Part shown: one piece after another, positions 4,976 to 7,586 of the stretch | How positions within the stretch are numbered: position 1 is the stretch's first letter | How the letters are laid out: each line of letters begins with the position of its first letter | Source: Mollicutes bacterium | GTDB lineage: Bacteria; Bacillota_I; Bacilli_A; Izemoplasmatales; Izemoplasmataceae | Reading direction: 5' to 3' | Length of the DNA: 57,041 bases | NCBI GenBank assembly: GCA_003558105.1 | Contig: PWMS01000065.1 | Location: 1-57,041 of the forward strand | Position numbers and translations under genes: made by a program | Notes under the pieces: model-generated | Told to the model about the DNA's origin: nothing | Database searches by the model: none | What the model saw: only the letters and a program-made list of their open reading frames with translations

Positions 4976-5052
4976 GCGCCCATAGCTCAATTGGATAGAG
5001 CGTTTGACTACGGATCAAAAGGTTAGGGGTTCGACTCCTCTTGGGCGCGCCA
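4976..5052 (+). tRNA. tRNA-Arg (anticodon ACG)
   Basis: Acceptor GCGCCCA pairs with TGGGCGC. The loop CTACGGA between TTTGA and TCAAA gives anticodon ACG (A34 normally edited to inosine by TadA). CCA encoded. Confidence 0.96.
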
Positions 5053-5057
5053 TTATT

Positions 5058-5134
5058 CGGGAAGTAGCTTAGCTTGGTAGAGCGCTTGGTTTGGGACCAA
5101 GAGGTCGCAGGTTCAAATCCTGTCTTCCCGACCA
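5058..5134 (+). tRNA. tRNA-Pro (anticodon TGG), integration target
   Basis: Acceptor CGGGAAG pairs with CTTCCCG. The loop TTTGGGA between CTTGG and CCAAG gives anticodon TGG. CCA encoded. It follows tRNA-Arg by five bases. The last 19 bases recur exactly at 6638-6656, so this gene is the attachment site of the island described below. The tRNA itself is intact. Confidence 0.97.
5116..5134 (+). repeat. Attachment-site repeat, left copy (tRNA-Pro 3' end)
   Basis: AATCCTGTCTTCCCGACCA, identical over 19 bases to 6638-6656. It covers half of the T-arm, the acceptor 3' strand and CCA, the usual crossover region for tyrosine recombinases that integrate into tRNA genes. Confidence 0.85.
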
Positions 5135-5147
5135 TTTTATTGTTATG

Positions 5148-5172
5148 ACATCTCCTTATGAGGTGTTTTTTT
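5148..5172 (+). terminator. Terminator after tRNA-Pro (inside the island)
   Basis: ACATCTC pairs with GAGGTGT around CTTAT, followed by seven T. It lies inside the island and supplies the tRNA operon with a terminator in place of the probable original one now at 6672-6695. Confidence 0.75.
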
Positions 5173-5265
5173 ATTTTAAAAGGCGTTTTAAGCCCTTTAT
5201 TAAGCTCTTTAATTATGGCGTTCATTGAGGTAATATATATCCTAATGACTGTTAATGATTGATAG

Positions 5266-5287
5266 AAGTTAGAAAAAAGTTAGAAAA
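5266..5287 (+). repeat. Two abutting 11-bp direct repeats, left flank of the island
   Basis: AAGTTAGAAAA occurs twice with no spacer (5266-5276 and 5277-5287), about 130 bases inside the left att copy. Read in another register as AAAAAAGTTAG it matches the right-flank repeat at 9 of 11 positions. It may be an arm-type recombinase binding site (inference). Confidence 0.55.
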
Positions 5288-5299
5288 TCCATGCGATAC

Positions 5300-5327
5300 T
5301 TGATTGTGTTGGTTTTCATGGTATAAT
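5300..5327 (+). promoter_or_regulatory. Promoter of the island methyltransferase
   Basis: TTGATT, 16 bases, TATAAT, which leaves an untranslated leader of about 90 bases. The leader contains small inverted repeats (TCACC/GGTGG) but no leader motif that I recognise. Confidence 0.6.
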
Positions 5328-5426
5328 CTATTTTGTGAAACATTGCATTTAGCGTGATCATCATGAGACAAGGGAGGTCACCCAAGGTGGTTCACATACT
5401 GGAAAAACCGACAAAATGGAGGAATT

Positions 5427-6248
5427 ATGGCGAACTATAATTGGATTGATGGGAAAGACTTTTCAATCAGACATTTCTATTTGATGGATCGTTGGCTTCT
5501 GGCGATGATTTTCAAAGACTTCGAGAGTCACGAACCCGAATCCCTGGGGAAACACGCAAGAACCCTCGGGACCCTTTTGGACAGGCATCCGGACCTTGTG
5601 TTCGTGATCAGGAAAAGAACCCCTGAGGCAAGCGGTCCTGTCGATATCCTTTTGAGCATAGCGGAAAAAGACATCAGTGATGAGGCGCTGCGGGCACGCG
5701 AGATTGAACTCATGGAGTTGCTTGAGACCGATGTTGTCTACACAGAACCCGATATCATGCAGAAAAACTGCAATTATATTTACGCGTGGGATGAAAAACA
5801 TTTGCACGCCCTCTGCGATTTGAAAGGCAAGACTGTCTTGGATCTCGGAGCGGGGACGGGAAGACTGACCTTCGCCGCAAGCAAAGTCGCAAAACGTGTC
5901 TATGCCTCCGAACCCGTTGACCGTTTGCGCGAATACATGCGTGACCGTGTTGCAAAAGAAGGCATCACGAACGTCAAAGTCCAGGACGGAATCGTCATGG
6001 ACATACCTCATGAAGATGACACATTCGATGTGGTCATGTGCGGGCATGTTGTGGGGGATGACTATGATGCCGAGGTCTGTGAGATGACCCGTGTGTGCAA
6101 ACCCGGTGGTCACTTGGTAATCTGCAATGGCGATGACGATATCAAACGCAGCAAACCTGACAGGAAGCTCATTGAGCGAGGGTTTGAACCACACTATCAT
6201 GAGAGCTCTGAAAAGGGGGACATTTACAACTATACCAAGAAAGTATGA
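5427..6248 (+). CDS. SAM-dependent class I methyltransferase (island cargo)
   Basis: A 273-residue protein with a Rossmann methyltransferase domain in its second half. Motif I is VLDLGAGTGRLTF (about 137-149), an acidic/proline motif II follows near residue 160, then FDVVMCGHVVG and RVCKPGGHLVI as motifs IV-V. The first 120 residues are a separate N-terminal region that I do not recognise. The substrate is unknown. GGAGG lies six bases before the ATG. Codon use (GGG, AGG, CCC, GTC, more G+C overall) is visibly unlike the AT-rich flanks, pointing to recent transfer, and it is the only gene of the tRNA-Pro island. A 245-codon frame on the opposite strand is a by-product of that composition. Confidence 0.85.
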   Translation: MANYNWIDGKDFSIRHFYLMDRWLLAMIFKDFESHEPESLGKHARTLGTLLDRHPDLVFVIRKRTPEASGPVDILLSIAEKDISDEALRAREIELMELLETDVVYTEPDIMQKNCNYIYAWDEKHLHALCDLKGKTVLDLGAGTGRLTFAASKVAKRVYASEPVDRLREYMRDRVAKEGITNVKVQDGIVMDIPHEDDTFDVVMCGHVVGDDYDAEVCEMTRVCKPGGHLVICNGDDDIKRSKPDRKLIERGFEPHYHESSEKGDIYNYTKKV

Positions 6249-6504
6249 CTATGGCAGAATGGTCTTTCAATCATCCTGAATGGAGTTTAGTGATATCCTC
6301 CTTTTATTATCCAATATCATTTTACACGACCGTAAAATGATTAGTGTGGCGGATTGATCTATAATGTGTTATGCTAATTATCGAAGATAAGAAATTTTAA
6401 GTCTAAAATGTAATTGAAAGCAATACTCAAAAAAATCTTATGTTTCTCTAAGTCGCATTTATAATCTCTGATGACTTCGTATACTTGAATTAGAACACTT
6501 TTAC

Positions 6505-6526
6505 AAAAAGGTCAGAAAAAGGTCAG
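6505..6526 (+). repeat. Two abutting 11-bp direct repeats, right flank of the island
   Basis: AAAAAGGTCAG occurs twice in tandem (6505-6515, 6516-6526), about 112 bases inside the right att copy, mirroring the left-flank repeat in unit length, arrangement and distance from the end. Confidence 0.55.
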
Positions 6527-6637
6527 TAATACTTAAATAGGACACATCTATCAAAGAAAACACAGATCCAAAGTTTAATAAAGCGACTAAAATAGAATGT
6601 AATAACTATAAAAATAATATGAAAACTGGACTGGCCG

Positions 6638-6656
6638 AATCCTGTCTTCCCGACCA
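6638..6656 (+). repeat. Attachment-site repeat, right copy
   Basis: An exact duplicate of the last 19 bases of tRNA-Pro. The bases before it (CTGGACTGGCCG) do not continue the tRNA, so this is a 3' fragment left by site-specific integration, not a second tRNA gene. Confidence 0.85.
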
Positions 6657-6671
6657 CTTATAGTCTAAATG

Positions 6672-6695
6672 AACACTTCTTATGGAAGTGTTTTT
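6672..6695 (+). terminator. Probable original tRNA-Pro terminator
   Basis: AACACTTC pairs with GAAGTGTT, followed by T, 16 bases after the right att copy. That is the distance expected if it ended the tRNA operon before the island inserted. Confidence 0.7.
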
Positions 6696-6880
6696 ATGTT
6701 CTTTGGATTACGATTTATCAGGGTTCTTATTCTGTTTAATTAAACACATCAGATGCATGAATATATTTTAAGTTGAAAAAATAGTCTTGAATGTGAAGCT
6801 GTATTTACATATCATGAAAGAGGTCAAGGCAGGTGAAAGGTATCGCTTCTTATCATGATCGTTCGTAAAGATTATGGAGG

Positions 6881-6909
6881 TTGATTATTTTAATACGCCA
6901 GTATATAAT
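6881..6909 (+). promoter_or_regulatory. Promoter of the 138-residue membrane protein gene
   Basis: TTGATT, 17 bases, TATAAT, ending 30 bases before the ATG. Confidence 0.65.
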
Positions 6910-6939
6910 TACTTTATGTTTTAAAGAGGGTGTTGCTTT

Positions 6940-7356
6940 ATGGAAGCTATCTATACTTTTTTGTTTTTTTCTTCGTATCGTATAGGCCATGTCTTGTTTG
7001 ATTTGGTCGTGCCGTTTATTTTAATGGTCTTGCTTTATGATGGGCTTTTTCGTTATTTAAGCAAACACGTGTTGTATCGTGACATATTCGTCTTTAAACC
7101 AAAACAGGTTGTGTTGAATATGGTTGCACGGATTGTCTTGTTATATACCTTTGTTTTTATGGTCTATGGCATCTATTGGTTGGTTATGCAACTTCAAGCA
7201 TATTGGGTACACATCGTTGTGGTTTTTGTCTTACTAGTAATCATGGTATCGATTCCTATGATGAAACGTTATACACCCAAAAAAACCAGGTATAAACAAA
7301 AACCTTCTTCAATAATGGATCAGGCTGAAAACCTTAGGAATTTTAGAAAACGCTAA
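6940..7356 (+). CDS. Hypothetical membrane protein, 138 aa
   Basis: I do not recognise the family. The protein has three strongly hydrophobic segments (about residues 10-37, 59-80 and 85-105) followed by a positively charged tail (KRYTPKKTRYKQK and a C-terminal NFRKR), which by the positive-inside rule puts the tail in the cytoplasm. GAGGGTG lies eight bases before the ATG, and a good promoter and a downstream terminator make it a single-gene unit. It is just outside the right boundary of the tRNA-Pro island. Nothing in it suggests an enzyme. Confidence 0.6.
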   Translation: MEAIYTFLFFSSYRIGHVLFDLVVPFILMVLLYDGLFRYLSKHVLYRDIFVFKPKQVVLNMVARIVLLYTFVFMVYGIYWLVMQLQAYWVHIVVVFVLLVIMVSIPMMKRYTPKKTRYKQKPSSIMDQAENLRNFRKR

Positions 7357-7397
7357 ACCCTTGTACACTAGCGTTATGCTGTTTACAAATTCAGCAT
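7349..7397 (+). other. Two consecutive hairpins at the end of the membrane protein gene
   Basis: AACGCTA/TAGCGTT (7349-7375) is followed at once by ATGCTG/CAGCAT (7376-7397). No T-run follows, so they are not standard terminators. They could protect the mRNA 3' end. Confidence 0.4.
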
Positions 7398-7449
7398 TTC
7401 AATATAAAATATAGTTACGTTTAAAATAAATCATACACAATGTATAAAG

Positions 7450-7470
7450 ATAAACTTATCGATAGTTTAT
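7450..7470. repeat. 21-bp inverted repeat
   Basis: ATAAACT-TATCGAT-AGTTTAT, a near-perfect palindrome upstream of a terminator and about 60 bases before the next -35 box. Function unknown. Confidence 0.4.
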
Positions 7471-7472
7471 GT

Positions 7473-7507
7473 AAAAATCGTCGCCTATCATTGATGCGAT
7501 TTTTATT
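7473..7507 (+). terminator. Terminator before the VTT-family gene
   Basis: AAAAATCG (or AAAAATCG-T-CGC) pairs with GCGATTTTT and runs into a T-rich tract. Confidence 0.6.
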
Positions 7508-7527
7508 ATATGTATGGTGTTTTCAAA

Positions 7528-7556
7528 TTGTCGATAACGGTTATTTATGCTATAAT
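7528..7556 (+). promoter_or_regulatory. Promoter of the VTT-family gene
   Basis: TTGTCG, 17 bases, TATAAT, ending 30 bases before the start codon. Confidence 0.65.
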
Positions 7557-7586
7557 GTAGGGGATATCTAAAGGAGTTGGGGTGAA

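Follow-up and report, generated by a model that had tools for sequence, protein, structure and literature searches.

A one-gene island at tRNA-Pro in a Mollicutes genome, probably a minimal CIME-like element with arm-like repeats inside both ends

How does a single methyltransferase gene come to lie between tRNA-Pro and an exact copy of the last bases of that tRNA gene, with no integrase beside it? The locus stands in the window analyzed here, a 57,041-nucleotide stretch of a Mollicutes bacterium that is contig C85 of the host assembly (G000; 1.56 Mb in 123 contigs, 83% complete, 4% contamination). An earlier note on this DNA had read the arrangement as the product of site-specific integration and had left two origins side by side, a satellite or other element mobilized in trans and the last remnant of a larger island. 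Our data bear out the integration, given relatives without the insert, a sharp 19-bp boundary, a lack of tRNA similarity 5' of the distal copy, and matching repeat pairs inside the two ends. The interval from 5135 to 6656 is probably a minimal island, resembling a cis-mobilizable element (CIME), that arose from site-specific integration of the tyrosine recombinase type.

Boundaries of the island and its site in relatives

Within the window, tRNA-Arg (4976-5052) is followed by tRNA-Pro(TGG), which ARAGORN places on the plus strand. The two ends of the island and their surroundings carry the following features.

5058-5134, + strand: tRNA-Pro (TGG), the intact integration target (ARAGORN; Rfam tRNA, 70.5 bits)
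5116-5134, + strand: proximal att core, attL-like, the final 19 bases of tRNA-Pro (repeat comparison, genome pattern search)
5147-5173, + strand: terminator-like hairpin 3' of tRNA-Pro, presumably element-borne (flank comparison)
6249-6637, no strand: AT-rich noncoding right end of the element, with a GC content of 30% (composition)
6638-6656, + strand: distal att core, attR-like, read as the displaced original 3' end of tRNA-Pro (repeat comparison, genome pattern search)
6671-6700, + strand: terminator-like hairpin 3' of the distal core, which may be the original chromosomal tRNA-Pro terminator (flank comparison)

The earlier note's starting observation, that the final 19 bases of tRNA-Pro have an exact second copy about 1.5 kb downstream, stands: AATCCTGTCTTCCCGACCA is found at both 5116-5134 and 6638-6656, identical at 19 of 19 bp and at 21 of 22 over 22 bp, and a weaker similarity, 79% over 58 bp, extends across the terminators downstream of the two copies. 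The two island ends hold the only exact copies of the 19-mer in the host assembly, where the next-nearest match, with one mismatch, is tRNA-Pro(GGG). Across 49 family genomes, the remaining copies examined were all 3' ends of tRNA-Pro(TGG) or tRNA-Pro(CGG), and the backwards 19-mer, used as a control pattern, had no occurrence. A tRNA-excluding pattern, which is blind to one-quarter of the possible non-tRNA copies and to all imperfect ones, picked up just two copies outside tRNA genes among 395 class genomes, the distal copy of the window and one in G074. On these counts, a chance origin of the 19-bp repeat can be taken as excluded. As in a CIME, direct repeats of the attL and attR kind stand at both ends, one of them rebuilding the target gene; as in an attP, the core is identical to attB at the tRNA 3' end over 19 of 19 bases.

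In relatives, the order tRNA-Arg, tRNA-Pro, VTT-domain gene, and tRNA-Cys is conserved, and the VTT gene begins about 0.13 to 0.21 kb past tRNA-Pro in G006, G009, and G017, compared with 2.45 kb here. The empty tRNA-Pro site that the earlier note had proposed to look for thus has its counterpart in relatives that lack the insert, several with tRNA-Pro almost adjoining the next conserved gene, and the insert is not common to all relatives; the comparison is with other species, a same-species empty site with identical flanks not being among the genomes. In G004, a member of the same genus, a single 19-mer is present at tRNA-Pro, the methyltransferase is absent, and other genes lie downstream, which marks the interval from tRNA-Pro to the VTT gene as a variable spot. 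The rest of this interval, 6657-7586, also varies among relatives, and an ORF at 6940-7356 (138 amino acids, membrane-like) has no homolog in the fetched loci.

The flanks speak to the polarity of insertion in two ways. For the flank 3' of the distal core (ACACTTC...GAAGTGTTTTT hairpin), alignment to the flank of same-genus G004 gives a score of 15.0, versus 6.5 for the proximal flank. The flank of G006 (genus g2) fits the proximal side better, opposite to G004. The usual polarity, with the tRNA restored by the incoming element and the original 3' end displaced, would fit the one same-genus flank, with G006 contrary, and is best called ambiguous here.

Paired direct repeats inside the two ends

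Each end of the island also contains a pair of short direct repeats.

5264-5287, + strand: proximal direct-repeat pair AGAAGTTAGAA/AAAAGTTAGAAAA, period 11, putative integrase arm-type sites (repeat search, shuffles)
6503-6526, + strand: distal direct-repeat pair ACAAAAAGGTC/AGAAAAAGGTCAG, period 11, putative integrase arm-type sites (repeat search, shuffles)

The proximal pair reads AGAAGTTAGAAAAAAGTTAGAAAA and the distal pair ACAAAAAGGTCAGAAAAAGGTCAG, in identical orientation. Their layout is the same on both sides, with a period of 11 and a 13-base match, and their spacing from the cores is near-symmetrical (129 bp proximal, 111 bp distal). A consensus common to both pairs, RGTYAGAAAAARGTYAG, matches the genome at these two places only, even when one mismatch is allowed; since this consensus was drawn up after the sites were known, the repeat structure itself was tested by shuffling. 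Such a repeat appeared in 0.17% of dinucleotide shuffles of the left end and in 0.27% of those of the right end, and at both ends in 0 of 3,000 trials, while the real DNA of the set contains 15 such repeats per 475 kb.

An attP of the tyrosine recombinase type with arm sites has its core flanked on each side by related repeats, and such repeats are present here. In Cluster J mycobacteriophages, whose attP targets a tRNA gene, imperfect 10-bp direct-repeat pairs flank the core on both sides, and the core lies about 100 bp from int (PMC3706429). The island shares with that attP (PMC3706429) a tRNA-matching core and direct-repeat pairs of about 10 bp flanking near the core, which are taken as arm sites. 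It differs in that the phage encodes an integrase beside attP, whereas the island does not, and in that the repeat sequences are unrelated. Because the pairs are laid out as in a phage attP, the 1.5 kb most likely comprises both genuine ends of an element recognized by a tyrosine recombinase-type integrase rather than one att scar.

By their architecture, the paired repeats look like integrase-binding arm-type sites; the reading is drawn from architecture, since searches of 395 class genomes, 49 family genomes, and viral contigs turned up no relative that combines an integrase with this core and these arms. The positive control, a complete tRNA-Cys element in G031, has no such paired repeats beside its 301-amino-acid integrase, and the arm reading is therefore not confirmed by a relative. 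The G031 element (C22:167258-189143; L096 and L097) spans about 21.8 kb, with the tyrosine recombinase gene adjacent and an imperfect 48-bp repeat of the tRNA-Cys 3' end. Paired arm-like repeats at both ends of the island are new evidence beyond the earlier observation.

The cargo methyltransferase

Between the cores lie one gene and a promoter-like sequence.

5300-5327, + strand: sigma-70-like promoter 5' of the methyltransferase, TTGATT, 16-nt spacer, and TATAAT, with TG preceding it (consensus match only)
5427-6248, + strand: cargo, a 273-amino-acid class I SAM-dependent methyltransferase with a helical N-terminal part of about 110 amino acids (ORF calls, profiles, predicted structure)

The methyltransferase ORF, which matches Methyltransf_25/11 at an E value of about 1e-15, is the sole substantial sense ORF between the cores. 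No recombinase ORF is found there, just as the earlier note had described, and its claim of a foreign composition holds by all three measures: the GC content of the gene is 0.491 versus 0.394 ± 0.024 in the other long ORFs of the window, its GC3 is 0.573 versus 0.390 ± 0.033, and its codon usage distance is the greatest among 37 window ORFs.

The gene is absent from five same-genus genomes. Its closest homolog (75%) is on contig L033, between undecaprenyl-diphosphatase-like and sugar-kinase-like genes, and homologs at 57 to 61% occur in genera g8 and g16. In L033, L034, and L035, whose contexts were fetched in full, the 19-mer is absent near the homologous genes. In related bacteria, the cargo family is an ordinary chromosomal gene. 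The contigs that bear the homologs have a GC content of 49 to 51%, making a donor of such composition plausible. Compared with the L033 homolog, dN is 0.18 and dS is saturated, near 3, which indicates that the family is under purifying selection. L033 itself (PWNQ01000100.1) is binned as Bacteroidales and may be a mis-binned Mollicutes-like contig.

As to function, the best substrate-type fits are UbiE/MenG-like small-molecule methyltransferases, far under the family cutoffs, and the substrate is named by no library searched. Read from the sequence, motif IV lacks DPPY/NPPY, and activity as a DNA adenine methyltransferase is for this reason unlikely. A fold search with a medium-confidence predicted model (pLDDT of 72) matched only generic class I methyltransferases, and searches of phages, plasmids, and viral contigs for mobile copies of the cargo returned generic methyltransferase matches or none. 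Two candidate roles were tried and rejected. For defense, the PADLOC mad2 match spans the methyltransferase domain only, and the island contains no partner gene. For a phage satellite, regulators of its own and packaging and capsid-interference genes are missing, the methyltransferase being the single ORF and its PHROGs matches being to generic methyltransferases only.

Remnant, mobilized unit, or tRNA relic

A CIME is an element that has lost its integration and transfer genes while keeping attL and attR (PMC5704250). Like a CIME (PMC5704250), the island has att repeats on both sides, a restored target 3' end, and no integrase, excision, or transfer gene inside. Unlike a CIME, it measures only 1.5 kb, holds one gene, and is not in tandem with an integrative and conjugative or mobilizable element (ICE/IME); it has, in addition, an arm-like repeat pair inside each end, and CIME-type excision in trans is putative here. 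We propose that tyrosine recombinase-type recombination between an attP carrying a tRNA-Pro 3'-end core and the chromosomal tRNA-Pro(TGG) would have restored a complete tRNA-Pro with the element's own terminator behind it and that the original tRNA-Pro 3' end and terminator would have been displaced to the far side. The element would thereby retain both cores and two arm-type repeat pairs, one inside each end. Its methyltransferase may be expressed from its own promoter, and the element encodes neither an integrase nor an excision factor, a relaxase, or a replication protein. Internal deletion of a larger integrative element is its most likely origin, and excision would presumably now occur only with an integrase of the same core and arm specificity supplied in trans.

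Such an integrase was sought in the host and beyond. A profile search of the genome found no PF00589 gene on the island contig and four on other contigs, namely, those for XerC and XerD, one on C25, a contig of 3 kb, and a truncated gene on C70. Within reach of these genes there are no core or arm matches, though the sequence around the C70 gene stops at the contig edge and the assembly is incomplete. XerC and XerD were rejected as helpers, as they are housekeeping copies by context and score, and so was the C25 recombinase, which lies beside an intact tRNA-Trp without matching core or arm sites. Contig C25 (L069; 3059 bp), which adjoins that tRNA-Trp, encodes an HTH repressor, a rolling-circle Rep (REP_ORF2-G2P), and the tyrosine recombinase, and it looks like a tiny integrative replicon, a single-stranded DNA phage-like element, or a sister-strain contig; contig C100 carries a second tRNA-Tyr/Trp pair. 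Among the 395 class genomes, core-plus-arm patterns matched only this window, viral contigs gave no match, and no ancestral or intermediate ICE/IME form was found. Neither the unit at other tRNA genes nor the cognate host recombinase that the earlier note had suggested looking for came to light.

These results bear on the reading of the island as a currently mobile mini-element, a satellite-like single-gene cassette for which a small size is normal and which another element or a phage, through its integrase, would regularly excise and integrate in trans. Both ends look complete, with cores and arm-like pairs, and the stretch between them holds no trace of an integrase; the distal 19-mer has stayed perfect though unselected in the chromosome, and the host assembly does contain two tyrosine recombinase genes that are not of the Xer kind, one on C25 and one on C70. 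Yet a second copy of the 1.5-kb unit occurs nowhere among the sequences searched, the nearest cargo homolog, in L033, shares only the gene and 14 bp upstream and not the ends, and neither non-Xer gene has cognate arms nearby, the one on C25 lying by tRNA-Trp. We regard this reading as rather unlikely. A minimal tRNA-targeted cassette, in which one cargo gene lies between complete attP arms and is trans-mobilized by an arm-matching integrase, is unlikely. The remnant, CIME-like island is preferred over a trans-mobilized mini-element because neither an integrase-bearing relative nor a second copy of the unit was found; of the two origins in the earlier note, the remnant is the one favored, trans-mobilization having neither a helper integrase nor a second unit in its favor. 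An island of this CIME-like sort is a known kind of element, unusual in its small size and in the completeness of its ends.

Other systems share parts of this arrangement. At ssrA in Dehalococcoides, 15 genomic islands without an integration module have been described (PMC3146451). They too (PMC3146451) lack integrases, are bounded by repeats of about 20 bp from an RNA gene 3' end, and carry cargo of foreign composition, but they have a serine recombinase helper and complete sister islands in the same array, whereas neither sister nor helper was found here. The island is like CALIN cassette arrays and MITEs (PMC11389934) in depending on an enzyme supplied in trans and unlike them in having a tRNA 3'-end core instead of folded attC sites or terminal inverted repeats. 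Within the class, a tRNA-Pro island in G074 has the identical 19-bp core pair on a contig without a PF00589 gene, so the tRNA-Pro core is used by other elements. That island is 19.6 kb long, with relaxase, MobC, and Abi genes and no matching arm repeats, and its repeat similarity runs at least 100 bp past the tRNA. It was considered as the missing parent and rejected, as it has the same core but neither an integrase nor matching arms. Its span (C32:48818-68448; L091 and L092) includes relaxase, MobC, Abi_2, sulfite-reductase-like, and iron-transport-like genes. The tRNA-Arg/Pro/Cys cluster, in which tRNA-Cys is the next tRNA downstream of tRNA-Pro, is an integration hotspot.

It is very unlikely that the distal 19-mer remains from the 3' end of a tandem tRNA-Pro(CGG) gene before which the methyltransferase was inserted or recombined, with no site-specific integration. 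A tRNA-Pro(CGG) is really present at this spot in related genera, which made a test necessary: in g8, g9, and g16 it lies about 50 to 150 bp after tRNA-Pro(TGG), with the 3' 19-mer exact or at one mismatch, and the two terminator regions of the island are, as noted, 79% alike. A second tRNA-Pro (CGG) soon after tRNA-Pro(TGG) is seen at loci L043, L044, L045, and L053 of related genera. However, the 58 bases 5' of the distal copy resemble either tRNA body less than shuffled sequence does (P = 0.92 and 0.97), no tRNA covariance match is found there to an E value of 0.5, the CGG gene is absent here in same-genus G004 and in genera g2, g3, g5, and g13, and the matching paired repeats would go unexplained. 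A decayed tandem tRNA gene, which the earlier note had named as an explanation that would refute its own, is rejected for this lack of tRNA similarity; identity begins sharply at the 19-mer, as expected of a recombination core.

An assembly or binning artifact, in which a misjoin at the conserved tRNA-Arg/tRNA-Pro stretch inserted a contig piece from another community member, is extremely improbable: the assembly is fragmented and partly contaminated, and the contigs of G004 and G012 break at the tRNA-Arg/tRNA-Pro pair, but the left flank keeps the Asn-Glu...Arg-Pro order of G034 and the right flank the VTT-Cys order of the family, so that both flanks are native, and a misjoin across nothing but a 19-mer would not account for paired repeats inside both ends.

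Integrase-less islands flanked by att repeats are usually dismissed as scars. The CIME-like island described here holds a core and both arm-like pairs within 1.5 kb, putatively all that an integrase would need, and so offers a compact natural substrate for the question of mobility in trans. Integrase-less islands of this kind may be recognizable by paired repeats at matching distances inside the att repeats and not by att repeats alone. If the cassette reading were true, one-gene units could spread without mobility genes of their own.
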